Of a DNA stretch of 64,000 nucleotides, positions 39,501 to 64,000 are shown piece by piece. Location: positions 930,001 through 994,000 of the forward strand of contig WION01000005.1 of assembly GCA_015039365.1 (NCBI GenBank), in the 5' to 3' direction. The notes below the pieces were generated by a model, which had not been told where the DNA came from, made no database searches, and saw nothing but the letters and a program-made list of their open reading frames with translations. Position numbers and translations under genes: made by a program. This DNA comes from Amanita rubescens. Its lineage: Eukaryota > Basidiomycota > Agaricomycetes > Agaricales > Amanitaceae. Every line of letters starts with the position of its first letter. The stretch's first letter is position 1.

Positions 39501-42500
39501 CATTTTACTGGATGCTCATACAGATATGATTCCCTACTTGACTTATACGTGGTGGTCATCCACATTTGCAATATATCTTGGTAATCATTATAAAAGGGTT
39601 TTACCATATATGATCAGCAGTGAGAACTGCTATAAGTGCCCGGCGCATTTTATCTTAATATAAAGATAATTTGCTGGCAGTATTGTGTCTGCCGTACCCG
39701 ACGATCATTAATGATGTAATCCTTTATTGGACACTGTATACAAGATTTATTTGATCTTGTTTTGTATATATGCTATATTTATTGTATCTTGTGTATGGAT
39801 ACAAGATACGAATATGACTTTAAAGGTCTACACCCACAGGGATACGACCGTTGTCATGACAAGTTTAATTGAGGATCCGAGAATGATCGACATTCCGCAT
39901 TCACTCATACTTGTATATTTGGGGATTTGCGCAAGGCAGGCGCCACCCCATTATAGCATATTGAATCTATTTTTGATATAGATTCTCTATGACGAAGAGG
40001 ATATACTTGTATTACAACAAGTATAATTATAAGTGTTTGTATAGAAGAACAAACACTTATATAATATCTCGTATGAACGAGATTTTGACCTCTAAGTCAT
40101 TTGAGTGTCAATGACTATCTTTTTGGACGATATATTCAACATGAACACGTCTACTGGGAAGGTATAACTGCGACGTTATCCGATATAGGTTTCCTTTTCA
40201 GTACAGCCTATATTAATCCTTAAACAAGGATTATTCCTCTGTTACGTGTAGTCCGTTGGCAAGCAATGTCCTCTTAACTCTGTTAATTCTTGTTCTGCCC
40301 TGATTCTATTTTATCTTTATGCATTATCCAGATGCAATAAGAGTATAGAACTCGAATGGGGAAGTTTCGTCGAATGATCTTGAATATCCTTTTTGATGTT
40401 CAACGTATAATGACAACGCTAAACCGAAATTCGTTATTTATAAAGATCCTCCTTATGAGTTGGCCGAAGCTCATTCATATACGGTATATTTTGGCAATGA
40501 CAACATGTCCTTGCTAATACCGCCAGGAAGATCATAACGATATTTCGAAGTCATAACAGTATTGGGTCTGTTGTGCCCCTGAATAACCCACAATATATAA
40601 ATATTGCTACTTATTCAAAGGTTGACTTGTACAAGTTTATATTCGTAGCAGTATTGGGTCTGCTGTATCCCCAAGTGATTAACAATATTTAAATATTGTT
40701 AACCAACCTGAAAACCGTCAAAACTTGTGTAAGGAAATTCTCCATTGTTCGGATGAAACCAAGAACTAGAGTTAATTAAAGAGGGTGTTGGATTATACGC
40801 AAGGTGTTCCTATCTTTCGCTTTTGAGGGCTAAGATCTGTGCAAGGAACTAAATGTATTCCAACAATCCAACCGTGATATCGTATAAACGATATTTGGGA
40901 ATCTGTATTTTTAAAGGAACTGGCGCAAGATTAACATAATCTATTTCTTTGTTTTTAAGCTACCATTGATTCTTATAAAGAAATACTGTTATATGTATGG
41001 AGAGGATATGTGAGGTTATTTGCGATAAGCCATAAGACAGGCTTATTTGAGATATGCATTAACCTGGCATTCCATATAATACACGTTCCTGACTAGGATA
41101 TTTGTCAGGAGTGTAATGTCATATTTGTAAAGACGAGACGCTTTCAAGACCGTATAAGTTTCAACGGCAAGGAGCCTTCTCTATACAATAGACGGGGATA
41201 AAACTCCAATACATATATTTGTTCGTGTTCAGGCATCTGTATATTATCGAGGGAGCTTCCTCCTCTAATACAGTTGATGACCATTATAATTATGGGCCTA
41301 TGTTTAATACGCAACCATAATGTACAATATGGGCCTATATTTAATACGCATCCATGATTGTATAAGTTTACAAGTTATATCGAATACTTGTTTTGATTGG
41401 TCATTTATACAAGTCGTAATGGACTTGTTTATTTGCAATGATTCCCCCTCAATCAAGACAGGGATTGTTATTGCGTTATTTAGCCTGATAGAATCATGTA
41501 TATTTTTGACATGATCTATTTATCACGTTTTAATTATATACGTGATGTGAACAGTATTCTTATTTAACATGTGATGATTTGTAAAAATCATCTTCATGTA
41601 TTAAAGAAATCAATGATTTCGTCAATTTATCATCTTTATAAAAAGATGTAACCGTTCTTGTGTTTCACACAATACATTATCCAACATAACGACGTTGGTC
41701 AACGTATATGGTCATGGTACATGTATTTCACTCAAGGATGATCTGGTTCCTATAGATAATCATTTAGAATTATAATCCACAATTCTTAAAGCTATAAGAA
41801 GTATTTTAAGGTATTTTTGGTTACGTCTGTCCTGTTATTGGAAAACCTATTTTTTTTAATATGAAGAGGGGATGAGCGTTAAGACGCCGCCGAACAATTC
41901 AATTTATAGGTTGAGTACAGAAATACTCTGGACGTTTATAGATGCTTGTAAAGACAAGCATAGAAGTCTATTCTTATACAAGTGATCGAAATTCCCTTGT
42001 ATGCGACAGTATTCTGGCAATGATGATAAATCCTTGCTAACGTCATTAAAGAATGACGGTATTTATACCAAGAAATTTGTTATCTCCAACAGATAATGTT
42101 CAGCAGTTTGAAACTGCTATTGCGACTACAGTGTTATGAGACACTTTCAAGACTGTGCTATTTCAACAGCAAGGAGCCTTCTCAAGTGTAGGAAACCATA
42201 TTATGAGACGTTTTCAAAACCGTATAAGTTTCAACGGCAAGGAACCTTTCTCAAAGGTAACACATTACTGTTATCTGCAAATAGATTATAGCCGTTTATA
42301 GGCTATAGATATCATTTTGCATTTGTGGAGAGCTTTTAAGGATATTGTTTTTATAGTGTAGATTTTATAGATATTTCTGAATGACGAAGATAATATGTGT
42401 TGATGCTTGTATATGATGACAAGCGTGATGATCTTTCTTCAAGTGATCGAAATTCCCTTGAACGCGGTATATTTTGGCAATGATAATGATCCTTGCTTAA

Positions 42501-45500
42501 TACCACCAGAAAGATTTTATATATATAAGTAATCGGGATTGCAAGGTATATACCTTCACGATTTCCTTATTTTTGAATATAAATTGTGTGACAAGTAATT
42601 GGATTTATAAGGAGTGATCCTTCACAATACTCTTGTTTTGATGACAATTTATATACTACATATATTTCTTCCAGAAATAATCTAAGTCTATGCTATATTG
42701 TTCTTCTACCCATTGATCATAGCTATTTATAGCCATGAAATTTCCATAATGACGCTCGAAATCTTCATGAGTATCATAAAATTCCTCCTGGGAATTTGTT
42801 ATTCTTATGTTCAACGAGTCTGTCAAAGGCTCGTGTGACAAAGGTGAAGGCGTGGAAAAATTTGATTTACATGATTTAAATGAATCATGTGTGGAATCTG
42901 ATTCCGGATCAGATTCGGGCTGTTTGACTAATAGTGGAGATCCTCCCCTGATGTAATCAGGCTTGCTACTATTTTTAAAGTCTTCCCAGCGCAAATGTGT
43001 AGGCTGTGGATGCGGCGAGCATCTGCAGCGGCCTTTGCCTTTGTTTGTTAAGGAGGCTTGGGCTAAACAATGTTCCGTATGCAAGTTAGGGTCTTGCGTT
43101 GACGAAGGTGATTGTTTTATAGCCTTATGCCGTGACGACCATGCCGAACGAATTTCACTAGCAAGTTGCTGGACTCTGATTGGTCCAACTTGTGTGGCAG
43201 TGTTTCCTGAACGTACTGCCGTAGGGCTAGAGTAATTCGTATTGATAGCGGTAACAGATGATGTAGCCGCTGTTTGGTTGATCCATTTTAATGGAACAGC
43301 CCTAATGGTCGTAAGTGCTTTATTTAAATGAGCAGCCGGGAATTGATGTCCCTGTGCTGCTATGTGTCTGTAACGAGTGATGATTTTATTTATAGATCGA
43401 TCATGATCTATTTTGTCCAGTGATCCGTCAAGGATTGCTGGCGAATCATCTTTGTAACGTTCTTGCAAGAACATCCATAGGAGTCTTGCATTGTAAACGT
43501 GTTGATAAAGCTCAAAGATTGTAAAGGACAATCTGAGCTTAATGGCGTGTAACGCCTTCTCGTTTTGTACAAGCTCATCAGCTTGTATGATGATTGCTGC
43601 CTTATTGGTGGCAGTGATCGGCGCAATTACTGCTTTAAGGTGAGCAGGGATTGCATTTGGAATAACGGGACACATGAATACCATCAGATTTGAGATCTGA
43701 AAGTATGCCGTTATTTGTCGTGTCCAGGCACGATAATTGTTTCCTTGTAATTCAGTGACAAGGGAACATAAAGCGCTGTCTTCTTCTTTGGTAAAAGAAG
43801 ACATAACAAGAATGTTGATAAAGGTTTATATTTATATAAAACCTTATGGAAATGTCGGTAACAAGGTTTGATAGCCTTGTATTGAAGTGGGTGAGCGAGA
43901 AATGTTATTTCTTGCTTCTTGATGATAGAACGATTGATTGAGATGAAATCAATTGATCGTTTGATGGATTATTTATAAATTCAATGATTTATATCTATTT
44001 AAGGATTTTATTAATGAAGGTGTCATTACATAAACGACAACAACTTCATAGGCAAGGGTGTCATAACGAATACGACAACAACCTTGCGTGCAGCGTTATG
44101 AGCTACAGCCAAGCATGATAATGCCTAGCACCAGGATCGATCCGAGGAACATGTACCAGACTTGTGTGCCTGACCTGTAAACGAGTATGACATGCATAAG
44201 GTCCGCGGACTGCAGTGCGCCTGCGGCAACTGCCTGGTCCCAGAGGTACCAGTCGTCTTTGGAAAAAAAAGAAAGGTGTCCGGTCCATAAACCGTCCGTG
44301 ACCACCTTTATAAGCACTCCCAGTAACAATATGAAAGTATACGTGGATGCCTTTTGAGCAGAGCCAACGGCTAATCTAAGGCGCTCTCTAGGAGTGGACG
44401 CCTAATAGTCTGCGTGTATGGTCCACAATGGGACCCCAGCACGACCTTTATACTTTGTGAAAGTTACTACGGGCCATATGATCTACATACGGTAACTAAA
44501 GGCACTAAGGGCCTTATAATGGAATATCGTGCATGAATACCCCAGTCACATCATGGAGGGCAAGTATAACTCCATGGGGGTCAAGGTTGCCATGCCAGCC
44601 TTGAGAAACATAGGTGGTACCCTAATCCCTGGGTGCAAGGAGATCCCCCTAAAGCCCTAGGGTCCGGGCGCATGTCATAAGCTCGTATGTCAGGTACAAG
44701 AACTCAGTTAAATTGACGGATGCCACTCAGGTCTCCGACCCGCACAATACTATACCTGTTCACACATCTTGCATGGTAACATGCCTGGAGGCGATGGTGA
44801 TGCAAGCAATACCATGTCGGGGCCCATAACCTGACGAAGATACGCCCAGCAGCGCAGCGTCTAAGTGTTAAAGTGAATACTTACTTAGAGTGGAGTGTAG
44901 AGTGGCGGTTACGACCTCGAACGATAAGTCACTATCCTATGGATATAGGATAGGGTGGTAAGAGGAGAAGGAAGGTTCTTTTTTGTACCTACATACAGGT
45001 AGTCTTATATACTACTAGTATCCTAATAAGTACAATGTATAGTAAATAGAGGAAGAGCTGTGCATGACGTATGATATGACGTCTAGTGCAGCTATGACGC
45101 GTCTACCGCAGTAATGGGATGACGCAAGCGACTATAGGATATTCCAGTATCCTATGTATGTATGTATATGTACATGTATATATGAATATACATGTATGTA
45201 CATCTAATCTGTATATCCTAATCTATAGGATAAGATATGATGTGTTTATCTTATATGAGATAAGATAAGATATACGTTATCTTATATGATTAGATAAGAT
45301 AACTTTAACAGTTTTAACAGTCAAAATCTGTCTCGTTATCGTCTAAATTCCCTTGAGGATTTATCCGATAACACTCTTATTCTTTGAACGTTCTTAAGTG
45401 CCGGAACTCCCTTGAGGAACCTACGGTACCTGATAAGCTCGACTTATCAGTGAACGAACGAACGTAACAATAAAACTAGACTCCTCTCCGAGCACGATAG

Positions 45501-48500
45501 CTTTAACGCTCTCACCTCCCATCATTCACCATTGCTCCACGACAATCTAAAAGTACCCCTCCGAATAACGCCAAACGAAACCCCCTTAACCATCTCTACT
45601 ATCTCGACGAACATTCCATTCATTGGGATAAACGAGAAAACGGCTGGTGTTATACTGCTTCAGGAAAACCCGTACCAGGTCACCAGTTTTGGGTAAAACA
45701 AAAACTTGGAAGACCACCAAATCAATCCTTCCCATTCGAAGGAGGATTATATCTAAACGAACGCAAACTTGCCTTTCACGAAGGAAGTAAACGTTGGTAC
45801 GCCACTGAATCGGAAACAGGAGAAGAACCGTACTTTATTAGAGACGAATACTTTGAAGGAGAACCCTTCATAGGAGGAAAAGAGGAGTTAACACGAACTG
45901 CGCTACAACGTTGGAAGAAAGCGAACGAACCAGAAACCTTAACCACTAGCCAAGAAACTCCCGTTGCATCACCACACGTTCATTACAGAGAAAGCGCTGA
46001 ACCGTCAGGAGAGTCCGATAAAGAAGACAATAAAGATTCCTTCTCTGAACAAGAGAAAGAAGAAGAATCCCAAGATAAACTTGAATACGCACCTGGAACC
46101 GAAGACGTTGTTATACCCACAGTAGAACAACGAGTTGAAGACGAAACCTCAGCTCAACTCATCGCTTCCTTATCCCTTGCAACCGAATCTAAACTCGAAG
46201 CTACACGACCCGCACCATCACCCCCTGTTGTATTTCCATACTTGTTTGCCCCACCAATCAACCCATTTCCTTCTAGAAAAGGAAAAGAACGAGATATGAG
46301 TGGATCAGGACCCCGGACCGAACCAAGGTCAGATCTACCGAAGATCAAACCTCCTAAACCGTTCGAAGGAGACCGAAAATATCTCAATCCGTTCATAGCG
46401 AAAGCCGAATTATTCATGAAAATGAATAAAATGACGGATGCTCAAGATAAGATACAGTTCATTATGTATCATATTGATGGCAACGCTCAACAATGGCGCG
46501 ACAACAAAATAACTGAATATGACGCCGAAACGACAAAATACGCCAACTATGACGCTTTTATTAAAGAACTGAAAGAAGATTGGGGACAAGTAGACGAAGC
46601 AGGACTAGCCATGCACAGATTACTCACATGGAGAAAACTCCCAAAGCAATCAATTAATCAATATATCGCGCGCGTCGATCGAGACATCAATTTAGCCAAA
46701 ATCACTGACGATACGACGAAATGTCATCTCCTAGTTTTAGGATTACCAAACACATTACGAGAAAAACTACGACTAGGAGGTGCCCCGACAACCTATAAAT
46801 CATTACGAACTCGTATCCTTGACATAGAAGTGGCAAACACCTTATTCTCCACTTTTGGCCAAGTAAAAGAGTTTGATGACAAAATGGAAGTCGACGAGGC
46901 TGTACTAGAATTAAACCGACAAGCACGACAAATGCAGATTGCTGAAACCTCCATGGAATGGGTAAAAACCGCTGTATGCTATGGATGCGGAAAAACAGGA
47001 CATTTAATCTCGGACTGCCCTAATCCCAAAAAGAAACGACAAAACCTTGGGAATTCACGAGGAAGGACAGCCCCTAGAGGACAATTTCGAGGAAAACCAC
47101 GCGGCCGAAATAATAACCGCAACAAAGGGAAAGGAAAAGGAAAAAGAATCAGAGTGCTGGATGCGGATAGCGATGAAGACGACAGTGGCTCGTCAAATGA
47201 AGAATCCAACAGTGAAAACGACGAAGACCAAAGAATCGCCGTCATACGAGAAATGGCGAAAACATTACCACGTAGCGCCCGCCGAAAATTGAACAAAAAG
47301 GGTTTTTAGAACGAGACGACGATGAATCAGCGACCGTCGTCTCTGAAGACGAACAACTATGTATAAATGGTGTAACAGTATCTTCTATATCCAGAAATAA
47401 AATCACCATTCCCATTACCAAATGTTCGAATCTAAAAACCGCTGAAACCAAAGCCCTTATCGATTCAGGCGCACAAGGAAAATTCGTCGATAGCTCACTC
47501 GTCAATTGGAACGAAATCACTCGCTTAAAGAAACCCATCCCAGTGCGAAATGTGGACGGAACAAATAACAAGTCTGGAGATATACGGTATAAAATCCAGA
47601 TAAGCTATAACATCGAAAACAACCGGTTTAAAGACTGGTTTTATGTCACACGACTAGGCGATCAACGACTGATACTAGGATTACCTTGGCTCCGAGAAAT
47701 CAACCCCAGAATAGATTGGTCTGAAGGAACAGTTAGATTCCCCGACGAAAGGAAGATCAATCCGGAAGAAGAAACTACGTTTGATTACGACGAAGAAACC
47801 GAAATGTACCTTCGGTATATCCAAAAAGAAGAAGAATTGAACGCAGATGAAGACGAAGATCTCGAGACTGATCACCTTTGGATCCAAGCAAAAACATCAG
47901 CGTCTCAAGCGCTCGCACATGAACATGAAGATAAATCTACGAAAGTAGAACTACCCCCTGAATATGACAAATGGAGAAAAGTTTTTGATAAACAGACATC
48001 AGAACGATTTCCCATTTCACGACAATGGGATCATGCGATAGATCTAAAAGAAGGATTTAAACCTAAAGTGGCAAAGAACTACCCGTTATCAATCCACGAG
48101 GAACAGCTAATGAATAAATGGGTCGACGAACAGCTCAAAAAAGGCTACATCCGACCATCACAATCTCCGCAAGCGTCTCCTTTCTTTTACGTTGCAAAGA
48201 AAGAAAAAGGAGAGTTGAGACCTTGCCAAGATTACCGATACATCAATAGCTGGACGAAACGAAATGCCTATCCCCTTCCTTTAGTATCCGACTTATTATT
48301 AAAACTAAGAAAAGCAAAATACTTCTCCAAGTTAGACCTCCGATGGGGTTACAATAATGTGCGAATAAAGAAAGGCGACGAATGGAAAGCCGCGTTCACG
48401 ACGAACCGTGGTCTCTTCGAGCCTACTGTAATGCTCTTTGGATTATGCAATTCACCGTCAACATTTCAAACGATGATGAACGAATACTTCCGTGACATGA

Positions 48501-51500
48501 TAGCCGAAGGATGGCTAGTCGTCTATATTGACGATATGTTGATATATGGAGCGAACGAGGAAGAAACGAGGGAGCGCACTAAGCAAGTCTTGCAACGGCT
48601 GAAAGAAAACGATCTATTCCTGAAACTGGAAAAATGTAAATTCGTCGCCAAGGAAGTTGAATTCCTTGGGATGATCGTCAAAGAAGGAAAGATCATGATG
48701 GACCCCATAAAACTCGCTGGAATCAGCAAATGGCCCGAACCGAAAACTGTTAAACAAATACGGTCATTTCTAGGGTTCGCGAACTTTTACAGGAAATTTA
48801 TAGGAAATTACGCCGAAATAGTAGCTCCGCTCACGGAACTGACGAAGAAAACAGTTCCCTTCCGATGGGATGCAGAATGTCAGAAAGCATTTGACACGTT
48901 AAAGGAGAAATTCCTAGAAGAACCGGTTCTAGTTATGCCAGATCCGACGAAACCGTTTTTATTAGAGACCGATGCGTCAAACTGGGCGGTAGGAGCCGTC
49001 CTGAAACAACGGGGATCTGATGGAGAACTGCACCCATGCGGATTTATCAGTCATCGGTTAAGTGATACCGAACAAAGATATCAAGTATACGATCGCGAGT
49101 TATTAGCAATAAAGAAAGCGTTTGAAACCTGGAGACACCTTCTTAAAGGAAGCCCACATACGATTATGATCCACTGTGATCATAAGAATTTATCATACTA
49201 CAAACATCCGCAGAAGATGACCGCCAGACAGTCACGCTGGTGGCAAGAAATCACGGAGTTTGATATCAAGTTAGAACATGTCCCTGGATCAAAACTTATT
49301 CAGGCAGACGCTTTATCGAGACGCCCTGACCATATTAACGAAGAAGAGGCAAAAGCAAAAGAAATCCCACAAACCATGATCTCTGATGACATGGTTATCG
49401 CAGCGATCAATGTATCTTGGGCAGACAAAATCACCGAATTATTGCCACAAGATAAATTTGCTAAAGTTGTAATCGACGGTCTCAAACACGGAAAACTACC
49501 CCTCCGATCAAAGTTTAATGACTGGAAAAATGATAACAACATCATTCGTTATCAAGGACGCGTTTATGTTCCTCAAAACGAAGAATTACGAAACGAAATA
49601 ATCAAGTCACATCACGACCCCGTAGTTATGGGTCACCCTGGAAGATTGAAGACACTAGAGCTTATCCGCCGCGACTATTATTGGCCTGGAATGACAACGA
49701 CCGTATCTAAATGGGTCGAAGGCTGTGCCTTATGTCAACAAATGAAGGTTAATACACATCCGATCACACCGGGTTTGATGCCTATTAAATCCCACGCCAC
49801 ACGCCCATTCGAACAAGTTTCAATGGACTTCATCACAGATCTACCAATTATCGACGGTTTTGATTCTGTTTTGACCGTGGTCGATCAAGGCTTAACAAAG
49901 GGCGTAATATTCATACCATGCAAAAAATCTTTTACCGCTATGGATACCGCCAACTCTTACATTAACGACGTTTATAAACGATACGGGTTACCGACAACCC
50001 TCATCTCCGATAGAGGACCACAATTTACCTCTAAAGTTTTCGAAGAAATCTGCAAGATCTTCGGAATTAACCATAGAAAGTCGACCGCCTTTCATCCGCA
50101 AACTGACGGAGAATCGGAACGACTCAATCAGGAGCTAGAAACCTACCTCCGGTTATACTGCGTTGATCATCCAAAACAGTGGAAAGATCACCTGCCATTA
50201 GCAGAATTCGCGCACAATCAACGGATACATCAATCTACCAAGATGACGCCGTTTGAAATTATGTTTGGAATAGAGCCTGTGGCTATCCCCACAGCATTCC
50301 CGCGAATCAACGTACCCGCTGCTGAAGACCGCTTCAAGGTCTTAACACAAATACGAGACGAAGCTCTCGCCGCACACGAATTAGCTAGACAGCTAATGAC
50401 TCAACGTGTCAAAGGGAAATCTCCTGCATTTAAAGAAGGAGACTTGGTATGGCTAGACTCACGAAACCTGAAAACTGGACAAATAAGAAAATTCTCGCCT
50501 AGACGAGAAGGACCGTTCAAGATCGAAAAAATCTTAGGACCTGTCACCGCTAAACTTGAACTTCCCCCAAGATGGAAGATTCACCCCGTTTTTCATGTTT
50601 CACTCCTTACCCCTTATCATGAAAACGAAACACATGGTCCAAACTTTACTAGACCAACCCCAGACCTTATAGATAACAAAGAAGAATACGAAATCGAGAC
50701 AATTGTCTCGCACCGAAGAAAAGGAAACCAATGGCAATTTTTAGTCAAATGGAAAGGTTATCCGACATCTGACAATTCATGGGAAACCGAGGAAAACTTA
50801 GAACACTCCGAGGAGACCTTAAACGAATATAAGGAACAACATGGAATTACAGCAATTGTCCCCACTACTCGTAAATCACGAAAACACCGTTCTTGAAACC
50901 ATGTCTTCCCCCACTAACAACCCATCCGCCGCTACTACTCCAGCCGCTTCAACAGTCGTTGAGGAAATTGTCCCTCCGACCCCTTCTAGGGAGGAATCGC
51001 CCGCACCATTGCCAATTCCTCCTCCTACCTGTATGTTACATTATACATCAATCGGTATAGAATGGTTCCCTATAATTCCTTCTGACGAGGAATTTGTACC
51101 CCGAAATGAAGATTCTTCATCTTCTGACTCATCCTATACCTTCCCATCATCGAACACTTCTACAATAGAAGAACTAATGCGAAACGTCACAGATATGGGG
51201 AACGCTATTCTCCCTAACACTCCTGTGCCACCTGAAGTGCAGGAAATGGTAACTCAAGTATTCGCCACCAGAGACCAAATGGTCATCACCTACGCACGCG
51301 GACCACGTCCTGACACCACCCCTGAGGATATCCGGATCATGCGAGAAGGACTACTCATGTTCAATGCCACCGCTTTTACCCTGGGAGTTCCTCCCATTGA
51401 TGAAGAACTCGTCGACGACTACCTTGAAAGGGCAAGAACTATCGCCGCCACCAATGCTGCAACCACCGCCGCCATCTCTGCCGCCGCTAATGCTGTTGCC

Positions 51501-54500
51501 GCCGAAATCGATACCATCACCATTAATGCTGCTATCGATGACGAGATCAATGAAAGACTCGTCAATCCCATCTCGATCCCTATTGTCTTCCCAGAAGACA
51601 CTCCATCGCCAAGGCCCCTTTACACCCCGTTGGATTTAATGAGGGAAACCCACGCTCGATCCATGAGCCCAGTACCTAGACTCCCTGCCGAAGGACCTAT
51701 TCCTAGGTTCTATTTCCAGCACGCCTCTGTCAATGACGACAATTTTAACGTGCCCGCACCCGACATTCCCGCTATAAACGTCATCTTGACACATTACGCC
51801 ATCCCCTCCTTCATCGATCCAATAATACGACGAGCCTTTTTCCGAATCTGGACGCTCTTCACGTCCTGGACCTTTGCCAACAACTATCTATTCATATTAA
51901 ATAGATATGTTCGCCCTGATCTGATGGCCCTCGTTAACGTCATCATTAATCTCACCCGTCGATTCCGAGAACCACAACGTAACCGCTGGATCACTTTGAT
52001 GATCTGGAATAATATTCATTGGTTTTGCGACCTACGAGGAGACGTATACCTCGAAGAAGCAACCCGTCTTACCACCGCCGGACATCGTCACCATTTCATC
52101 CAACCGACACGACAACCCGCTTTAGACACTGGCATGGCCTGGATGCACGGACGCCCTGTATTTCCCCGCACTCCCGTCAATGCCACGTTCGAACGAATTC
52201 GAACCCTTAGTGACCGACTCAACCCGATGATGACCCCTGATGGTTGGGACATAACTATATTACGACAACTACAAACGACGATTAACAATCTCGTGTGGAG
52301 GCACGATCGTAACCCTAATAGACCCAATGTCAATAACGAATACCAAGACGCCGCCGTCATCGCACTCCAAACAGGACATACAATTGAAGGACGCGATGTC
52401 CCTATCCTTGAAAACCCGACACGTCGCACCATCTTTCACCTGCACGGACCTGATCCCTCAGCCGAACGATTAGTATCATTCGAACCGAATAACCTAGCCT
52501 TCGAGGGAGAAGACATCCCTGGAACTCAAGGTTGTTACATGTGCGGAGCCCCGCATCACACCACCGAACACCATCAACGACGAGAAATACGCCGAGGACC
52601 GGTACATGAGGAAACCCCGCCTCCCACTTATCCAGACGCTATAACACAATTATCGCTGCCCACGCCATTTGAACAAATCCCTGAAAGACGAATTTCTACC
52701 GCTTCGCCTGCTACTACTATCGATTCCGCCCAACTCGAACAAGGCGAACCTTCCCCGCTTATCGAAAGAACACGACGAGGGACAAATACTCGTCCTCCAG
52801 GCAACCGCTTCACTACTACTACTACTGGACCTCCACCATCACGACGAAACCTTGGAAACCGTCGAGGCCAATCCACACGAGGACAGTCGACACGACATGT
52901 CGCCACTATGACCGCCTCGAATACACGAGAAGAGCGACCGACTCTTCAAGAACGACTTACTGACAACCGCCGCCGCCGTCGTCATCCCTGGCAAGGAAAT
53001 GAAGACTCTTACACCTACGACAGCGATGCTGAACACAATCGTGACACGTAGTCACAAGTAAATTCAATATTCGGCGAATATTGGACTTCGTATGTAGGAG
53101 AAGGGCTATGTTACAAACGTACGTCATGGCCTATCTTTTCTTTATCTTATCATCTATGTCATTCCTCCTATGTCATTATTTGCATATGCGTTCCTTCCGG
53201 AACATTCGTCGTTTATCATATGCCAATTACTTTTATCACATGTATGTCGTTTTCACATGTTAACCGTTTCATTATCACATGTAACCGTTTTCATTATCAC
53301 ATGTGTATATACTTACCATATTTGCGTATGTACTTTGTACTATATAAATCACGCAAATATACGACTAGACCTCAGTCTAGTTTTAACAGTCAAAATCTGT
53401 CTCGTTATCGTCTAAATTCCCTTGAGGATTTATCCGATAACACTCTTATTCTTTGAACGTTCTTAAGTGCCGGAACTCCCTTGAGGAACCTACGGTACCT
53501 GATAAGCTCGACTTATCAGTGAACGAACGAACGTAACAGGGACAGGAAAAGGTAAATGAATCCAATCAATATTTAACTGTACTGGAAATTAGCTATTCTC
53601 TCCACAGTTCCTTTGGTGGTTGTATTCACCAAATTTGATGGTCAAGTCATCCAAGAATCTGGAAAATTGAATGACATTCAGGATGATGGAGCTAAGTGGG
53701 ACATGGCCAGGAAGAATGCTGAAATCACTTTTCAGAAAACTTATCTTCCTAAAGTCTTGAATGCTCAATATCCACCAAAGTGCTATGTGAGATTGGAAGG
53801 TAAGAATGAAGCTACTCCCTCCTTTTACAGAGATATCATATTTTACTAGATATGGATATACCAGAAAATGATTGTCCTGAATTGAGTGAGAGGACAGCTT
53901 ATGCAATTGATGATGCCAGTCTACAAGAACTATTTGTTTCAACACAAAAGAACAATCTTAACCTTTGTGTTAAATTTGGACTTGAGTGAGTATCACACTC
54001 TGATGTTGTTTTGCTTTTAATAAGTTGAATGTGGCTAGACATGTCTTTCAGAGACAAAAGGGAACCTCATTGGAAGCTGCCTTTATCATAGTACTCAGCA
54101 AGTTTCCACATTACTGGGTACTTACAAAACAAGGCTCACATCATGGTTATGTGAAAACTAAGTTACAATCAGATTGCCAAAGTAAGCATATTTTGAAATG
54201 TTAGTCATGATGATTGTATATCATTGGAAGGTCAATGTGAGTATCACAAGTTATTTTTATTTCATGGTTGCTTTGACTAAATGAATAAGGATGATGTACA
54301 TGTATGTACATACATATGTTGACTTTAATTTACCCATCATGTTTAATAATTTCTGTTGTATCAAGAAACACAACAACATTGAAGTGAGTAAGACAGAAAA
54401 AAAATTGCAGTAAATCTGATGCCTTTGACAAAGTGGGCAAGTGATTTCAGATCTTTAATCACTATTGGTCTCACAGCAGATAGTTTGTGAGTGATGCTAC

Positions 54501-57195
54501 TCATATGTATATTGAGTGAATATTACAATGGGCAATAGCATGTAAGTGATGGTGCACATTTTTGTGAAAATTTCATTATATGCCACCTGATACACAGAAA
54601 GTAATTTAAACCCTTCTCTGGGGCATAAAGTATCTCATCCCATAATCAACAGGCAGTGAGTGACAACTCTATTTGTCTGGGAGGTAACATCTCCTGTGAT
54701 ACAGGATGTAAGTGATGGAATATTCACAATTGCAAGAAGTGTCACAATGTTATATCACTGATAGAAAGTATGTCATATTGTCTTTTTGCATCTCAAATCA
54801 TCAGATGGCTTACAGAGTGTGAGCAACAATGTGATATTCATTGTGGCAAGGAGTCTCATCTTGTCTCAATTTGTGGCCAACAGGCTGTAAGTTACACTGT
54901 ATCTCTTTTGCAGTAGAGCCATCTCAATATACCACAGAGAGTGAGTGAAATTGCATAGAAATCTGCAATGATTGTCTCAATATTGCATGTCTGGCAGGAA
55001 GTGAGTGGAAGTGTTTGTGCTTCAATTACAGTCCATCAATGACCAACAGGAAGTGAGTGCCAATATTGCACCTATATTTTTGGAATATTGTCCTAATACA
55101 CACAAAACAACAAAGAGTGAGCAATTTCATTATTTATTGTATTATATCAAATGAGGGTCATCTTAACAACAGGAGGTTTGTGTTCACAGTGCTGTTTTGT
55201 TAATAAAAGTGATTAATGCATTTTCCTGTCACACAGTGAGTGCATAGTGAAGCATTTGGTGCAACCTGCCAAACTGATTACATTTTATAACAGGAAGCAA
55301 GTGATACTACATTTGTTTTCTTTACCATGTAGTCTCATTGCATTTCACCTTATGACCAACAGTATGTGAGTGACACTGCATTTTTTTCCTTTACCATGCA
55401 GTCCCATTGCATTTCATCCCATGACCAACAGTATGTGAGTGACACTGCATTTTTTCCTTTACCATGCAGTTTCATTGGATTTCATATGATCAACAGGGAG
55501 TGAGCACAATGTATTTTTCCCCTTTACCATGTAGTCTCATTGCATTTAGCCACCCCAGGACCAACAGTATGTGAGTGACACTGTATTCAAGTATTCCTTT
55601 ATCATGCAGCCTCATTGTATTTCATCCCATGACCAACAGGAAGTGAGTGACACTGCATTTTTTCCTTTACCATGCAGTCTCATTGCATTTCATCCCATGA
55701 CCAACAGGAAGTGAGTGACACTGCATTTTTTCCCTTTATCATGCAGTCTCATTGTATTTCATCCTATGACCAACAGAGTGTGAGTGACACTGCATTTTTT
55801 TCCTTTACCATGCAGTCTCATTGCATTTCATCCCATAACCAACAGTATGTGAGTGACACTGCATTTTTTTCACCATCCGGCCTCATTGTATCCCATCCCA
55901 TGACCAACAGGATGTGAGTGACACTGCATTTTTTTCCTTTACCATGCAGTCTCATGGTATTTCATCCCATAATGAATAGATTGTGAGTGATACTTTTTTT
56001 CCCTTTACCATGCAGTCTCATTGCATTTCATCCCATGACCAACAGAGTGTGAGTGACACTGCATTTTTTTCCTTTACCCTGCAGTCTCATTGTATTTCAT
56101 CCCATGACCAACAGGATGTGAGTGACACTGCATTTTTTTCCTTTACCATGCAGTCTCATGGTATTTCATCCCATAATGAATAGATTGTGAGTGATACTTT
56201 TTTTTTCCTTTACCATGCAGTCTCATTGCATTTCATCCCATGACCAACAGTATGTGAGTGACACTGCATTTTTTCCTTTACCATGCAGTCTCATTGTATT
56301 TCCCATGACCAACAGAGTGTGAGTGACACTGCATTTTTTTCCTTTACCATGCAGTCTCGTTGCATTTCATCCCATAACCAACAGTATGTGAGTGACACTG
56401 CATTTTTCCTTTACCATGTAGTCTCATTGCATTTCATCCCATGACCAACAGGGAGTGAGCACATGCATTTTTTTCCTTTACCATGCAGTCTCATTGCATT
56501 TCATCCCATGACCAACAGTACAATGTAAGTGACACTGCATTTTTTCCTTTACCATGCAGTCCCATTGCATTTTGTCCGATGACCAGCAGAAAGTGAGTGA
56601 CACTGTACATACATATTTACCATGTGGCCTCATTGCATTTTCATTCCATGACCAACACAGGAAGTGAGTGACACTGCATTTTCTCAAAACATGCATTCTT
56701 ATTGCATTTCATCCCATAATGAACAGATTGTGAGTAATACTTTGGTTTTTTTTCATCATACAGTCTCATTGCATTTCATCCTATGACTAATAGTCTGTGA
56801 GCAACACTACATCTTCTTTACCATGCAGTCTCACTCCACTACAAACAGTATGTGAGTGATATTCATTTGCATTTCCCTGACTACCATCTCATCACCTCTT
56901 GCCATATGGCTAACACATAATCCACAGCCTGTGAGTGATGCTATTCTTGTATCTGCTTGTAAATGTAGGCAAGCCTAATGCTCAATGATCAACAGAAAGT
57001 CAGTGAAATTTTACTTGTACCCAAACCAAGCAAACATAATCAAAACTTCTCTTAACCAACAGAGAGTGAGTTACATTGTCTTTGTGAACATTTTATGACA
57101 CCCAACATCATGTGTCACAGGATGTAAGTGATTTAGCAATTTCTTGCAACAGACAGTTGGAATAAATTTTATTGTACATGTACAACAAATAGAAA
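36512..57195 (+). CDS. P-loop GTPase with a codon-sized-exon tail; split by a retrotransposon
   Basis: Ordinary exons 36512-36545, 36591-36764, 36816-36862, 36914-37083, 37138-37206 continued at 53544-53551, 53608-53799, 53850-53985 and 54054-54117 give 298 residues in one frame. G1 is GRANAGKTT (40-48), G3 is HDSQG (D106 to G109), and G4 is TKFD (175-178); between them lie TPSIERGIHDI and FIFHDSQGFES. This is the GTPase family of unknown role that is expanded in mushrooms. Exon 5 is interrupted after GGGAC by the chromovirus at 37207-53538; removing it and one GGGAC restores KGTGKVPLVVVF. The acceptor at 54053 was chosen over 54051 because only it keeps the frame (SLEAAFIIVLSKFPHYW). Downstream follow micro-exons of 9, 6, 6, 18 and then mainly 3 nt. 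The end is lost in the element at 57251. The present allele is probably not functional. Confidence 0.75.
37202..37206 (+). repeat. Target-site duplication GGGAC, left copy (outer chromovirus)
   Basis: GGGAC directly precedes the LTR start TGTTAC and recurs at 53539-53543 directly after the LTR end GTAACA. Joining the flanks restores the GTPase exon. Confidence 0.95.
37207..37482 (+). repeat. Outer element 5' LTR, first part (U3 to R start)
   Basis: Contains four CACATG motifs (37335, 37352, 37374, 37396) in a repeated TTATCACATGT context, a TATATAAA box at 37439, and the R-start AGTCTAGTTTT at 37472-37482. The spacing of TATA to AGTCTAG is about 31 nt, as expected for a start site. The nested element begins right after GTTTT. 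Confidence 0.9.
37483..37961 (-). repeat. Nested element LTR (3' LTR in its own orientation)
   Basis: 479 bp. Contains hairpin-forming ATGTACATGTATATATG / ATATACATGTATGTACAT and several TATCTTAT/ATAAGATA inverted motifs. Followed on the plus strand by CACCCCCTCGC, which read on the minus strand is a purine-rich tract GCGAGGGGGTG directly before the LTR. Confidence 0.92.
37962..42655 (-). other. Non-coding interior of the nested element with dispersed short repeats
   Basis: AT-rich. Recurrent phrases include a CAAG(A/G)CCGTATAAGTTTC block followed by AACGGCAAGGA(G/A)CC at about 41145 and 42205 (variant at 42140), TTTTGGCAATGA...TCCTTGCT..TA at 40490, 42015 and 42475, and GTATTGGGTCTG at 40560 and 40650. 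These may be packaging or structural elements. No ORF above about 106 codons is convincing. Confidence 0.6.
42656..43804 (-). CDS. Gag of the nested copia-type element
   Basis: 382 residues. The N-terminus MSSFTKEEDSALCSLVTELQ leads into GNNYRAWTRQITAYFQ, the mark of copia-type Gag (DUF4219/UBN2 style), followed by KLRLSFTIFELYQHVYNARL and WMFLQERYKD. No CCHC knuckle is visible; the C-terminal third is Ser- and His-rich and acidic. An intact frame in an element without pol suggests that Gag is still used for packaging. Sequence between its stop and the LTR is non-coding. Confidence 0.8.
   Translation of the reverse strand: MSSFTKEEDSALCSLVTELQGNNYRAWTRQITAYFQISNLMVFMCPVIPNAIPAHLKAVIAPITATNKAAIIIQADELVQNEKALHAIKLRLSFTIFELYQHVYNARLLWMFLQERYKDDSPAILDGSLDKIDHDRSINKIITRYRHIAAQGHQFPAAHLNKALTTIRAVPLKWINQTAATSSVTAINTNYSSPTAVRSGNTATQVGPIRVQQLASEIRSAWSSRHKAIKQSPSSTQDPNLHTEHCLAQASLTNKGKGRCRCSPHPQPTHLRWEDFKNSSKPDYIRGGSPLLVKQPESDPESDSTHDSFKSCKSNFSTPSPLSHEPLTDSLNIRITNSQEEFYDTHEDFERHYGNFMAINSYDQWVEEQYSIDLDYFWKKYM
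44096..44329 (-). CDS. Possible small membrane protein upstream of gag (nested element)
   Basis: 77 codons on the transcribed strand between PBS and gag: MLLGVLIKVVTDGLWTGHLS, then WDQAVAAGALQSADLMHVI and a hydrophobic end MFLGSILVLGIIMLGCSS. One C-terminal membrane segment is plausible. No homologue is known to me; it may be chance or leader sequence. Confidence 0.3.
   Translation of the reverse strand: MLLGVLIKVVTDGLWTGHLSFFSKDDWYLWDQAVAAGALQSADLMHVILVYRSGTQVWYMFLGSILVLGIIMLGCSS
44820..44831 (-). promoter_or_regulatory. Primer-binding site matching the anticodon arm of initiator tRNA-Met
   Basis: Directly inside the LTR the minus strand reads GGTTATGGGCCC. This is complementary to the GGGCCCATAACC of eukaryotic initiator tRNA-Met around its CAU anticodon. 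Copia and Ty5 use a half-tRNA primer from this arm, so it agrees with the Gag type. Confidence 0.8.
44832..45310 (-). repeat. Nested element LTR (5' LTR in its own orientation)
   Basis: Same 479 bp as 37483-37961, no difference found by eye. The element's transcript starts here on the minus strand. Confidence 0.92.
45316..45469 (+). repeat. Outer element 5' LTR, second part (R-U5)
   Basis: 154 bp that continue the LTR after the nested element and match 53385-53538. Ends CGAACGTAACA. Confidence 0.92.
45471..45482 (+). promoter_or_regulatory. Self-priming primer-binding site (outer element)
   Basis: TAAAACTAGACT, one base after the LTR, is the exact 12-nt complement of AGTCTAGTTTTA at the presumed R start (53374-53385 in the 3' LTR, about 31 nt after TATATAAA). 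Tf1/sushi elements prime reverse transcription this way, with the folded 5' end of their own RNA, not a tRNA. No tRNA-type TGG site is present. Confidence 0.8.
45507..46295 (+). CDS. AUG-less open frame fused in frame to Gag (outer element)
   Basis: 263 codons open between TAA (45504) and the Gag ATG (46296), with no ATG in any frame in the whole leader. Its translation shares YxLD...W...G.PV....FW(V/I).QK..RPPN.S and LYL.E....F.....RW.A.E......(Y/F)...EYF with the second chromovirus, although the DNA is well diverged, so selection acts on protein. Two halves of the domain look alike (LD/LNE...W..S). A Glu/Ser-rich linker leads to Gag. It could be an N-terminally extended Gag started at a non-AUG codon, analogous in logic to retroviral glyco-Gag, or use a spliced start. 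Confidence 0.65.
46296..47309 (+). CDS. Gag of the outer chromovirus
   Basis: 337 residues from MSGSGPRTEPRSDLPKIKPP. The capsid part has FEGDRKYLNPFIAKAELFMK and RLLTWRKLPKQSINQYIARV. The knuckle CYGCGKTGHLISDC (CX2CX4HX4C) lies near residue 230, followed by basic RGRTAPRGQFRGKPRGRNNN and an acidic stretch, and the end is NKKGF. The start at MSG is the first ATG of the transcript and matches MSG in the second chromovirus. The stop sits inside the slip site. Confidence 0.88.
   Translation: MSGSGPRTEPRSDLPKIKPPKPFEGDRKYLNPFIAKAELFMKMNKMTDAQDKIQFIMYHIDGNAQQWRDNKITEYDAETTKYANYDAFIKELKEDWGQVDEAGLAMHRLLTWRKLPKQSINQYIARVDRDINLAKITDDTTKCHLLVLGLPNTLREKLRLGGAPTTYKSLRTRILDIEVANTLFSTFGQVKEFDDKMEVDEAVLELNRQARQMQIAETSMEWVKTAVCYGCGKTGHLISDCPNPKKKRQNLGNSRGRTAPRGQFRGKPRGRNNNRNKGKGKGKRIRVLDADSDEDDSGSSNEESNSENDEDQRIAVIREMAKTLPRSARRKLNKKGF
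47300..47306 (+). promoter_or_regulatory. -1 frameshift heptamer GGGTTTT at the gag stop (outer element)
   Basis: In Gag phase this is G GGT TTT, a canonical X XXY YYZ slip site, immediately followed by the TAG stop. After a -1 slip the ribosome reads GGG TTT TTA GAA and continues in the open Pol frame, which has no ATG near its beginning. Confidence 0.8.
47306..50896 (+). CDS. Pol polyprotein of the outer chromovirus
   Basis: In the -1 frame from the slip site: aspartic protease LIDSGAQGKFVD (47456-47491); reverse transcriptase with ASPFFYVAKKEKGELRPCQD, LDLRWGYNNVRI and YIDD (48524-48535); RNase H LETDASNWAVGAVL; integrase zinc region HPGRLKTLELI...CALCQQ, then DFITDLP and LISDRGPQFTSKVF; the GPF-type module PRREGPFKIEKILGP; and a C-terminal chromodomain with FLVKWKGYPTSDNSWETEEN. 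Chromodomains direct integration to marked chromatin. All catalytic residues look intact. The first internal Met (47543) lies after the protease, so frameshift expression is required to include it. Confidence 0.92.
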   Translation, partial: LERDDDESATVVSEDEQLCINGVTVSSISRNKITIPITKCSNLKTAETKALIDSGAQGKFVDSSLVNWNEITRLKKPIPVRNVDGTNNKSGDIRYKIQISYNIENNRFKDWFYVTRLGDQRLILGLPWLREINPRIDWSEGTVRFPDERKINPEEETTFDYDEETEMYLRYIQKEEELNADEDEDLETDHLWIQAKTSASQALAHEHEDKSTKVELPPEYDKWRKVFDKQTSERFPISRQWDHAIDLKEGFKPKVAKNYPLSIHEEQLMNKWVDEQLKKGYIRPSQSPQASPFFYVAKKEKGELRPCQDYRYINSWTKRNAYPLPLVSDLLLKLRKAKYFSKLDLRWGYNNVRIKKGDEWKAAFTTNRGLFEPTVMLFGLCNSPSTFQTMMNEYFRDMIAEGWLVVYIDDMLIYGANEEETRERTKQVLQRLKENDLFLKLEKCKFVAKEVEFLGMIVKEGKIMMDPIKLAGISKWPEPKTVKQIRSFLGFANFYRKFIGNYAEIVAPLTELTKKTVPFRWDAECQKAFDTLKEKFLEEPVLVMPDPTKPFLLETDASNWAVGAVLKQRGSDGELHPCGFISHRLSDTEQRYQVYDRELLAIKKAFETWRHLLKGSPHTIMIHCDHKNLSYYKHPQKMTARQSRWWQEITEFDIKLEHVPGSKLIQADALSRRPDHINEEEAKAKEIPQTMISDDMVIAAINVSWADKITELLPQDKFAKVVIDGLKHGKLPLRSKFNDWKNDNNIIRYQGRVYVPQNEELRNEIIKSHHDPVVMGHPGRLKTLELIRRDYYWPGMTTTVSKWVEGCALCQQMKVNTHPITPGLMPIKSHATRPFEQVSMDFITDLPIIDGFDSVLTVVDQGLTKGVIFIPCKKSFTAMDTANSYINDVYKRYGLPTTLISDRGPQFTSKVFEEICKIFGINHRKSTAFHPQTDGESERLNQELETYLRLYCVDHPKQWKDHLPLAEFAHNQRIHQSTKMTPFEIMFGIEPVAIPTAFPRINVPAAEDRFKVLTQIRDEALAAHELARQLMTQRVKGKSPAFKEGDLVWLDSRNLKTGQIRKFSPRREGPFKIEKILGPVTAKLELPPRWKIHPVFHVSLLTPYHENETHGPNFTRPTPDLIDNKEEYEIETIVSHRRKGNQWQFLVKWKGYPTSDNSWETEENLEHSEETLNEYKEQHGITAIVPTTRKSRKHRS
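50901..53051 (+). CDS. Extra third ORF after pol (outer chromovirus)
   Basis: About 716 residues from MSSPTNNPSAATTPAAST; the frame is open from ATG 50841, inside pol. The start at 50901 lies 4 nt after the pol TGA, suited to termination-reinitiation. The middle is Ala-rich helix (AATNAATTAAISAAANAVAA) and a structured part with FRIWTLFTSWTFANNY and RWITLMIWNNIHWFCD. A knuckle-like CYMCGAPHHTTEHH (CX2CX4HX4H) precedes a basic Arg-rich end (RRNLGNRRGQSTRG, DNRRRRRH). It looks like a nucleic-acid-binding, second Gag-like or envelope-position protein; no membrane span is evident. Ordinary chromoviruses lack it. Confidence 0.75.
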   Translation: MSSPTNNPSAATTPAASTVVEEIVPPTPSREESPAPLPIPPPTCMLHYTSIGIEWFPIIPSDEEFVPRNEDSSSSDSSYTFPSSNTSTIEELMRNVTDMGNAILPNTPVPPEVQEMVTQVFATRDQMVITYARGPRPDTTPEDIRIMREGLLMFNATAFTLGVPPIDEELVDDYLERARTIAATNAATTAAISAAANAVAAEIDTITINAAIDDEINERLVNPISIPIVFPEDTPSPRPLYTPLDLMRETHARSMSPVPRLPAEGPIPRFYFQHASVNDDNFNVPAPDIPAINVILTHYAIPSFIDPIIRRAFFRIWTLFTSWTFANNYLFILNRYVRPDLMALVNVIINLTRRFREPQRNRWITLMIWNNIHWFCDLRGDVYLEEATRLTTAGHRHHFIQPTRQPALDTGMAWMHGRPVFPRTPVNATFERIRTLSDRLNPMMTPDGWDITILRQLQTTINNLVWRHDRNPNRPNVNNEYQDAAVIALQTGHTIEGRDVPILENPTRRTIFHLHGPDPSAERLVSFEPNNLAFEGEDIPGTQGCYMCGAPHHTTEHHQRREIRRGPVHEETPPPTYPDAITQLSLPTPFEQIPERRISTASPATTIDSAQLEQGEPSPLIERTRRGTNTRPPGNRFTTTTTGPPPSRRNLGNRRGQSTRGQSTRHVATMTASNTREERPTLQERLTDNRRRRRHPWQGNEDSYTYDSDAEHNRDT
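53096..53105 (+). promoter_or_regulatory. Polypurine tract (outer element)
   Basis: AGGAGAAGGG three bases before the 3' LTR start at 53109. It primes plus-strand DNA synthesis. Confidence 0.7.
53109..53538 (+). repeat. Outer element 3' LTR
   Basis: 430 bp, TGTTAC...GTAACA, uninterrupted. TATATAAA at 53341 and R start AGTCTAG at 53374. It matches the split 5' LTR. Followed by target duplication GGGAC (53539-53543). Confidence 0.95.
54118..55296 (+). repeat. Codon-sized exon array, diverged 5' block
   Basis: Intron-like units whose interiors share almost nothing except splice signals. Candidate micro-exons: 54173-54181 (9 nt), 54231-54236 (6), 54290-54295 (6), 54366-54383 (18), then triplets TGG 54434, TTT 54484, CAT 54539, AAA 54598, GCA 54653, GAT 54705, AAA 54765, AGT 54816, GCT 54884, AGA 54938, GAA 54998, GAA 55050, GAG 55173, GAA 55294. 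Two units are unclear: AGA 55114 (acceptor AA instead of AG) and TGA 55237 (weak donor, or GTGAGTG starting at 55236). Donors are GTGAGTG, GTAAGTG, GTAATTT, GTATGTC, GTTTGTG and GC-type GCAAGTG at 54437 and 55297. Branch-like CTGAT, CTTAAC and TGACC lie 3-10 nt before the acceptor. Introns are about 45-75 nt. Confidence 0.75.
55297..56729 (+). repeat. Codon-sized exon array, homogenised core of 65-72-bp repeats
   Basis: Near-identical units with the order donor GTGAGTGACACTGC, T-rich tract, CCTTTACCATGCAG, TCTCATTGCATTTCATCCC, ATGACCAACAG. Micro-exons: TAT 55363, TAT 55432, GGA 55497, TAT 55568, GAA 55640, GAA 55708, AGT 55777, TAT 55846, GAT 55911, ATT 55980, AGT 56046, GAT 56115, ATT 56184, TAT 56251, AGT 56316, TAT 56385, GGA 56452, TACAAT 56519 (6 nt), AAA 56590, GAA 56661, ATT 56727. 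The internal CATGCAG is lost or altered in some units (55880, 56620), whereas the terminal CAG/TAG before each triplet is kept, so the latter is the likely acceptor. Repeats of triplet order (GAT ATT AGT, GAT ATT TAT AGT TAT GGA) show expansion by unequal exchange of multi-unit blocks. Confidence 0.8.
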
Positions 57196-57250
57196 GTGAG
57201 TGGATTTTCACATTCATTTTGCATGAATATCAATCATATTTACAACCAAC
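56730..57250 (+). repeat. Codon-sized exon array, diverged 3' block
   Basis: Units again lose interior similarity but keep the splice frame: TCT 56794, TAT 56849, CCT 56928, AAA 56996 (donor GTCAGTG), AGA 57063, GAT 57121, AAA 57193. The last donor, GTGAGTG at 57196, opens an intron that is cut at TTTACAACCAAC by the second chromovirus at 57251; the missing acceptor (AACCAAC followed by AG) probably lies beyond that element. Confidence 0.75.
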
Positions 57251-63138: not shown

Positions 63139-64000
63139 ATGTCATACCAAGTTATTATGCAAGATGGAAACAACACCACCGACGCCGTTCAGCATTTCCC
63201 CTGGTCTGAATTCTACGCTGGAGAGAACACCGACACCCGACTCACCACTGAACCCCACCGACCTCGACTCGTTCTTCATACCACCGACACCGACGAAGAA
63301 GACACTGACCCGAACGACTTCGTTGATGTTCCCTACAGATCTCCCGATCAGACCTCGTCTCAAACGATCCCGGTCACTCCCACCGAAACCCAGGAAACCC
63401 ACCACAGAACATCAGAAACTCTGGCTGTACCTGGACGAATTACGGAAGATCGCAATAGCCGACCGATCCCACCTAGAAACGCTGAAGACATTAGCGTTAC
63501 CTTACATAGAGAGACGGTATCTGCCGGTCACGCTTCGACTCAATCTCATAACGAATCTATTCGAGGCAACGACCAGAGTCACGGTACAGATGGGACTAAC
63601 CGCGATATGGTTGGCTCCATCATACGAACCACCCCCGATCTCTATCTCAGTTATCACGGAATTACTACTTACACCAAGGTTAGAGACCGCGTCACTCTGA
63701 TCTGTAATGCCGCTAGACTACAAGTCGACGTCTTTGACCAAGAAAGGATAGCTCGAGTCTGGCGACTTCTCATGGACTTCCGAACCGCCACTACCCTTGC
63801 CGGTCAAGCCCGAGATCAGTACAACTATCATTGTGCCGATTTAATCGAAACGTTTGTAAACGTTACGTCACTATACTGGGAAGACGTTCATCCGAAAGGA
63901 GGAAACCTAGATCAACTGGCGATAGATCTATTACGACGACTCCTCACAGCTGACATCGAACGTTACATCATCCTTGCTATAGAAAGCATTGACGATCAAA
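63139..64000 (+). CDS. Third ORF of the second chromovirus, cut by window end
   Basis: Frame open from ATG 63139 (MSYQVIMQDGNNTTDAVQHF) to the window end (287 codons), including ARLQVDVFDQERIARVWRLL and NVTSLYWEDVHPKGGN. Position and MS start mirror ORF3 of the outer element (1 nt versus 4 nt after the pol stop). A second frame, 63164-63700, is also open and has LWLYLDELRKIAIADRSHLE and VQMGLTAIWLAPSYEPP, which looks at least as protein-like; either the two overlap or a -1 shift near 63690 joins them. The 3' part is clearly in the 63139 frame. Confidence 0.6.
   Translation, partial: MSYQVIMQDGNNTTDAVQHFPWSEFYAGENTDTRLTTEPHRPRLVLHTTDTDEEDTDPNDFVDVPYRSPDQTSSQTIPVTPTETQETHHRTSETLAVPGRITEDRNSRPIPPRNAEDISVTLHRETVSAGHASTQSHNESIRGNDQSHGTDGTNRDMVGSIIRTTPDLYLSYHGITTYTKVRDRVTLICNAARLQVDVFDQERIARVWRLLMDFRTATTLAGQARDQYNYHCADLIETFVNVTSLYWEDVHPKGGNLDQLAIDLLRRLLTADIERYIILAIESIDDQ

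Follow-up and report, generated by a model that had tools for sequence, protein, structure and literature searches.

Schistosome micro-exon genes encode the variable middle of a protein in many tiny symmetrical exons, mostly 6-36 nt long and mutually unlike, between ordinary end exons. Introners are scattered one by one over many unrelated genes. A 64,000-nt stretch of contig WION01000005.1 of Amanita rubescens, hereafter the window, contains a gene for a P-loop GTPase in which the exon that ends in TGG at position 54117 is followed by an array of introns separated, for the most part, by exactly three bases. Such arrays share with the schistosome genes the tiny-exon middle between ordinary ends, and differ from them in having predicted exons of one codon and homogenised introns in the middle. 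They share with introners a family of similar introns, and differ in that these introns lie in tandem with one codon between them.

Families of similar introns within a genome, termed introners or introner-like elements (PMC9860276, PMC4457414), and tandem duplication as a source of introns (PMC4974935) are both described. A single 3-nt micro-exon is reported for Drosophila homothorax, with troponin T and NCAM cited alongside (PMC7392893), and micro-exons of 1-15 nt for plants (PMC8831610). These cases show that exons of one codon or less can be joined with precision and can escape annotation, as is predicted here; unlike the micro-exons in those accounts, which are isolated or at most two adjacent in ordinary genes, the predicted one-codon exons occur by the dozen in a row and in thousands of units. 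No array of one-codon exons emerged from a literature search that covered few subscription papers; it returned 3-nt exons that stand alone, along with plant micro-exons, introners and stwintrons.

The arrays in these GTPase genes are very probably runs of one-codon exons, which are predicted from sequence to enter the mRNA one by one and to encode a linker that evolves by turnover of units, with its codons diversifying. The spliceosome would join the triplets one after another, and the linker so assembled would connect the GTPase domain with a conserved C-terminal region. Each codon, with its intron of ~50-75 nt, would form a cassette complete in itself, and the gain, loss or skipping of one would change one amino acid and keep the frame. 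If spliced as predicted, the 3-nt exon is a building unit used ~40-80 times per gene and not a rare curiosity. Models that need a minimum exon length for exon definition would be challenged and intron definition would have a natural test bed; single residues of a protein could be changed with the reading frame kept safe; and, within one repeat, the exon would be what varies and the intron what is homogenised, in arrays that the public gene models examined miss.

Predicted exons of one codon in the window array

Positions are those of the window, on the forward strand, unless a locus or contig of the assembly (L- and C-numbers, respectively) is named; L045 is the sequence 3' of the window, and P-numbers denote proteins. 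The array opens, as an earlier note on this DNA had read it, with exons of 9, 6, 6 and 18 nt (54173-54383). These encode I-A-K (54173..54181), where the C410 paralogue has V-A-R-E (12 nt), V-N (54231..54236), D-D (54290..54295) and K-H-N-N-I-E (54366..54383), the comparable residues of P0049 being DDKHNEIDWF. A conserved segment of 17 predicted one-codon exons follows (W F H K A D K S A R E E E E Y Y G; 54434..55499) that aligns without gaps to WFESADDAAGKEREYYD of P0049, and then a variable segment of 14 (Y E E S Y D I S D I Y S Y G; 55568..56454), with introns that are mutually similar and ~65 bp each. Beyond the 6-nt exon Y-N (56519..56524), also in the earlier note, are 10 more one-codon exons (K E I S Y P K R D K; 56590..57195), the last of which is AAA at 57193-57195. 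The array runs past 57250, with ten further one-codon units at L045:1383-1979 and an ordinary exon at L045:2033. The window total is 41 units of the form AG-N3-donor (54434 to 57195) plus five exons of 6-18 nt. The array described in the earlier note is borne out, with its count of 43 places lowered to 41 units; the places at ~55116 and ~55237 have no fitting AG and are probably skipped. The 41 units were chosen by hand from 59 raw AG-N3-GT/GC places, the remainder being register ghosts or weak sites, and none of them is a stop triplet, as had been claimed for the clear triplets.

Between 54118 and 57200 there are 36 AG-N3-GTRAG places; 500 dinucleotide shuffles averaged 0.32 and reached 3 at most. 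Each other spacing from 0 to 12 is found at 0-3 places, except for spacing 1, whose seven places are AGA or AGT codons read one base late and one place that lacks an AG. The central part of the array is a tandem repeat of ~69 bp, and the public gene models examined omit the array, as expected of a satellite that lies within one long intron or an untranscribed tract and has its AG-N3-GT spacing as a by-product of tandem duplication. Such a satellite is extremely improbable. The spacing of three is held in the diverged blocks, 54384-55290 and 56800-57200, at 9 and 5 places, respectively, with 0-3 places at any other spacing, much as the earlier note had maintained. Its argument that splicing constraint, rather than satellite drift, maintains the array also gains from the exon length and stop avoidance given next, and from the low variation of splice positions relative to intron interiors and the decoding of conserved protein residues described below.

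When exon length was left free under a flat prior, the parse of the window and six loci (among them L043 and L044, which are near-identical copies) assigned 3 nt to 377 of 396 internal exons. A harder parse, from ordinary exon to ordinary exon in five loci, gave 350 exons of 3 nt among 390, and the rest are mostly mis-parsed; strict thresholds completed this parse in none of the five loci and looser thresholds in four, the loosest kept mis-parsed stretches, and chains of fixed exon length were then used. With the length K set from 1 to 9 in nine sequences, K=3 scored 202-1827, K=7 scored 49-597 and every other K at most 59. The K=7 score is a register ghost, the same places being read to a second GT, with NNNGTGA before it. 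The trained signals are GTGAGTG for the donor and TGACCAACAG for the acceptor, with GT...AG intron ends and a branch-like motif before the AG, and we take the introns to be U2-type spliceosomal introns. With tandem tiny exons, in multiples of three, between ordinary exons, the genes with arrays are built like micro-exon genes.

Stop codons are avoided throughout the 75.7-Mb assembly (786 contigs) that contains the window. There are 1701 copies (871 + 830) of ACAG-VRA-GTGAGTG and only two (0 + 2; control counts 0 and 5) of ACAG-TRA-GTGAGTG, in which the triplet is TAA or TGA. These and other genome-wide counts include presumed haplotypes, since the assembly has near-identical contig pairs. If all first bases were equally used, ~567 TRA triplets would be expected, and ~190-210 at the 11% share of T-first triplets, at which the binomial probability of the deficit is ~1e-82. 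No stop is present among 283 triplets that precede GTGAGTG. In a set of 535 triplets, which left out any TGA followed by GT, the third base is A in 312, T in 200, G in 23 and C in none. The unfiltered set has 566 triplets and 31 TGA, 30 of which overlap a normal unit four bases upstream, the remaining one being a two-base unit in L006; its single TAA falls outside the L041 array. Most amino acids are served by one or two codons. NTA codons are rare, and this would be explained by the TAG that they form with the G of the donor, a second acceptor.

A donor that lies so close behind an acceptor also recalls recursive splicing, in which the units would be ratchet points for stepwise removal of one long intron, with the triplets usually omitted. 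At one place, common to L045 near 1930 and the C410 paralogue, the acceptor directly abuts the donor with zero bases between (GCTAGGTGAGAAATAC), and this AG-GTGAG place is a possible recursive splice site. Ratchet points, however, need neither three bases nor the avoidance of stops, and the decoded triplets match contiguous proteins. As an account of the arrays as a whole, recursive splicing is very improbable.

A genome-wide GTPase family and its decoded linkers

The earlier note described one array and proposed a search for the same periodicity in GTPase paralogues. A pattern of two linked units has 3030 matches (1506 + 1524) genome-wide and its reversed control has none, so that the array is real, as claimed, and belongs to a gene family rather than to a single locus. 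There are at least 241 GTPase exon matches in the genome, and the two GTPase exons ahead of the window array have counterparts, at 53-69% identity, on the 5' side of those in L039, L041, L042, L043 and L044. Among the matches listed, a GTPase exon lies on the same strand within 12 kb 5' of 32 of 44 array clusters, counted by hand.

Both array ends are visible in eight of 11 sequences, namely five genes plus three copies that are nearly identical; in this check only the array start was seen in L065 and the window, and neither end in L040. In all eight, the preceding exon ends FPHFW in phase 0 and the following exon starts [DGH]ELF, also in phase 0, behind AG. The last ordinary exon of the window likewise ends in phase 0, at 54117, as the earlier note had read it. 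On the 3' side of the arrays of L039, L041, L042, L043 and L044 lies coding sequence for the C-terminal region of P0047, P0049 and P0072; for the window gene it is in L045, where the array ends at PELLSLF. Because this conserved region is encoded 3' of the arrays, the arrays must encode an internal segment. The earlier note had pictured a C-terminal tail that could vary residue by residue; unit gain and loss were found in two of three pairs of near-identical copies, and the segment that varies is an internal linker, not a tail.

Five proteins, P0002 (386 amino acids, from a 1446-nt contig), P0032, P0047, P0049 and P0055, continue uninterrupted past the FPHxW motif. Since genes of the GTPase family also have several ordinary introns, their contigs, to judge from shortness alone, are very likely spliced RNA. 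P0002 and P0027 are 58-90% identical to the genome exons in the rows listed, and so are probably not transcripts of this genome. One-codon chains spell WFEQGKETDETKYDG in L039, WFAKGKETNEIEF in L043, WFEQGKEADR in L041 and WFERGKDD in L042. WFEQGKETD (L039), WFEQGKEADR (L041) and WFAKGKETN (L043) resemble WFEHGKKDTD of P0032, and the decoded WF stretches resemble WFEKGKKESDREIEYDGG of P0002 and WFEHGKKDTDKQIVYDG of P0032. Only six of nine fixed-length chains carried a WF stretch and were compared with the best of six proteins (the chains of L063 and L065 fell short of WF and that of the window began after the W); of 3000 shuffles of each, those as good numbered 0 for L039, 4 for L041, 6 for L042, 0 for L043, 0 for C410 and 21 for L040, where the WF is far inside the chain and possibly fortuitous. 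For an incomplete decode of L063, 0 of 2000 shuffles were as good against P0002 and P0032.

In the window, the start of the run, WFHKADKSAREEEEYYG, lies without gaps on WFESADDAAGKEREYYD of P0049 with 9 of 17 residues identical and 0 of 100000 shuffles as good. The end of the same gene, after the second of two inserted elements described below, decodes as R-Q-Q-F-V-K-K-K-I-I followed by PELLSLFG and lies on RRDFVEREILPGLLSLF with 4 of 10 residues identical and 32 of 100000 shuffles as good. The odds in both tests are flattering, because the two AG-less units to be skipped were chosen beforehand. The match of decoded units to transcript-like proteins further strengthens the case for splicing constraint. 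In the protein collection, residues 278-345 of P0002 matched only P0002 itself, and residues 280-461 of P0047 matched only P0047 and P0055.

The clusters that have no GTPase among the matches listed are C57, C107, C154, C155, C190:118496, C231:12603, C313, C372, C403, C485, C662 and C777; some of them carry other intron families. The L004 array (C45), similar to that of L006 (C57), adjoins a divergent GTPase that is 26-33% identical to the eight proteins searched. The protein closest to this GTPase is P0119 (458 amino acids, from a 1727-nt contig), whose linker is rich in His, Glu and Tyr and may be encoded by an array too.

Turnover of units, introns and codons

Three pairs of near-identical copies (L043/L044, L042/L062 and L063/L064) were aligned. 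Changes are present at 4 of 2140 splice positions, 84 of 11772 intron-interior positions and 5 of 642 codon positions, and the splice positions differ from the intron interiors with a Fisher p of 0.003. One unit of 65-66 bp is present in one copy and absent from the other in two of the three pairs. That the arrays might be relics in dying genes, once spliced and now unused, would accord with the insertion that breaks the window copy and with codons that change as fast as introns in near-identical copies; the avoidance of stops over >1000 units and the low rate of change at splice positions point instead to recent selection, and make relics quite improbable.

The introns differ in behaviour along the run. 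At each of the first six positions, introns are 0.71-0.84 alike across four paralogues and 0.42-0.58 alike to the intron that comes next in their own gene. Beyond roughly the fifteenth intron, likeness to that neighbour equals or exceeds likeness to the paralogous intron at the same position, and it amounts to 0.76-0.87 at positions 14-20 and 30 (L063, whose chain starts later, was excluded from this comparison). This argues for an old, fixed one-codon run that is followed by a younger, homogenised and hypervariable run. The start of the run, and also its end in the two genes read there, has conserved codons, the first introns being old and position-specific; in the middle the introns resemble their neighbours and the codons are strongly varied.

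Codons vary almost without regard to the introns that flank them. In eight arrays, 435 pairs of introns that are <3% divergent (mean 0.8%) flank codons that are 52% divergent per site; the codons are equal in 77 pairs, and in 232 they disagree at two or all three sites. The pairs share units and so are not independent, pairs with >10% gaps were excluded, and 417 of the 435 come from two arrays, L041 (247) and L006 (170). The codon difference rises only from 0.52 in the closest class of intron pairs to 0.64 in the most distant, and in the L006 array a nearly identical intron (0.3% divergence) accompanies codons that are 56% divergent. Were units simply duplicated in tandem, codon and intron would be copied together, and the pattern therefore implies either selected codon variety together with intron homogenisation, or some process that acts on codons or introns separately.

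Near-identical introns that border unrelated codons are also what would result if introner-like introns had invaded an older coding sequence that was once continuous, landing between its codons, and the conserved segment is of the same length as in its contiguous homologue. Other properties of the arrays fit poorly with such an insertion origin. None of the 535 triplets ends in C and only 23 end in G, unlike ordinary codons; whole units are gained and lost with their codons; in L041, exact copies of a CAA unit lie side by side; and the introns of the conserved part are mutually unlike. An insertion origin is accordingly unlikely, though it retains some weight.

The het-d and het-e genes offer a parallel, as repeats are homogenised both inside each gene of the family and from gene to gene, while diversity builds up at a few specificity residues and the number of repeats changes (PMC1805685, PMC2873952). 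The repeat there is a protein WD repeat, whereas in the arrays the homogenised part is the intron and the varied part a one-codon exon. The variable linker of the GTPases might serve recognition or the choice of partners, with codon variety selected. Given the likeness to het-d and het-e, in homogenised repeats with a few diversifying specificity residues, non-self recognition would be the most attractive role. We also consider, tentatively and at somewhat less than even chances, that thousands of one-codon cassettes with interchangeable introns constitute a codon-level diversity generator that writes hypervariable GTPase linkers, possibly for self/non-self discrimination. Cassettes would then be added, dropped and replaced faster than introns change, and the exon would have become the codon.

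Besides the limits on the shuffle tests and intron pairs noted above, several observations weigh against one-codon splicing. Codon changes in the near-identical pairs are no rarer than intron changes, and so give no sign of constraint on particular residues there. In the window, an inserted long terminal repeat (LTR) element breaks the reading frame. The nine fixed-length chains contain two stops in 471 units, one each in L043 and the window, where the automatic chain took a TGA at the AG-less place at 55237, and one L006 unit has two bases (AG-GA-GTGAGTG). Twelve of the 44 array clusters have no GTPase exon among the matches listed; these may have unlisted GTPase exons or other hosts. The five contiguous proteins stem from sources other than A. 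rubescens. With incomplete decodes, shuffles as good against P0002 numbered 47 of 2000 for L039, 45 of 2000 for L041 and 1344 of 2000 for the window, for which 35 of 2000 were as good against P0049. Seven public A. rubescens models (P0001, P0016, P0053, P0069, P0075, P0084 and P0120) leave the arrays out: five stop 8 to ~55 residues past FPHxW, P0069 ends before this motif, and P0084 passes from FPHYW directly to the C-terminal region.

The host gene of the window, its insertions and its protein

The host protein is a P-loop GTPase, as judged by its P-loop (GRANAGKT) and G-domain fold. Against the Pfam family MMR_HSR1 (PF01926; cut-off 21.9 bits) the core of the L041 protein scores 20.4 bits, and P0047, P0049 and P0119 score 16.1-19.6 bits; some relatives carry PF01926. 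An AlphaFold2 model of P0049, built with 27 sequences, has a mean predicted local distance difference test (pLDDT) score of 78, with a confident G domain and a helical C-terminal part that is mostly confident. Between these two parts, residues 315-359, a stretch that few sequences cover, are modelled with low confidence. In Foldseek and VIA-align, GM4951 and immunity-related GTPases rank at the top, tied with other G domains, and no family in the VIA-align listing settles the function.

The gene is on the forward strand. By analogy with L041, its first coding exon, with the ATG, would be 36512..36545, and the P-loop exon (36591..36764) is the same exon as in L041. A short exon that ends in RPDETHATPSIE (36820..36862) has putative boundaries, with P0053 as the comparison, and the exon that begins with RGIHDIEHQITYPGSNFIFHDS (36914..37083), with boundaries read from the sequence, has an exon match at C439:966887-967090. 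The next exon (37138..37206) is broken after its bases GGGAC by LTR element 1, a ~16.3-kb insertion in coding sequence (37207..53538; no strand assigned) recognised by its terminal repeats and target repeat, and this exon ends at 53544..53551. Sequence reading and exon matches place two further exons at 53608..53799, with the sequence TKFD, presumably the G4 motif, and at 53850..53985, beginning with DMDIPENDCPELSERTA. The last ordinary exon before the array (54039..54117) was read from the sequence and ends SKFPHYW in phase 0.

LTR element 2 lies in the array intron that follows, from 57251 to the end of the window at 64000 and on to L045:1375 (no strand assigned). Its terminal repeats of 451 bp are 100% identical, with CCAAC on both sides, and the element is young. 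With element 1 in a coding exon and element 2 in an array intron, the window copy itself is probably non-functional, whatever the family does. Among 41 matches there was no insertion-free allele of this copy, the nearest paralogues being 89% identical. The terminal repeats of element 1 are likewise 100% identical, over 276 bp, and its target repeat GGGAC is present at 37202-37206 and 53539-53543. The 5' repeat of element 1 stops short near 37483, as though another element had entered.

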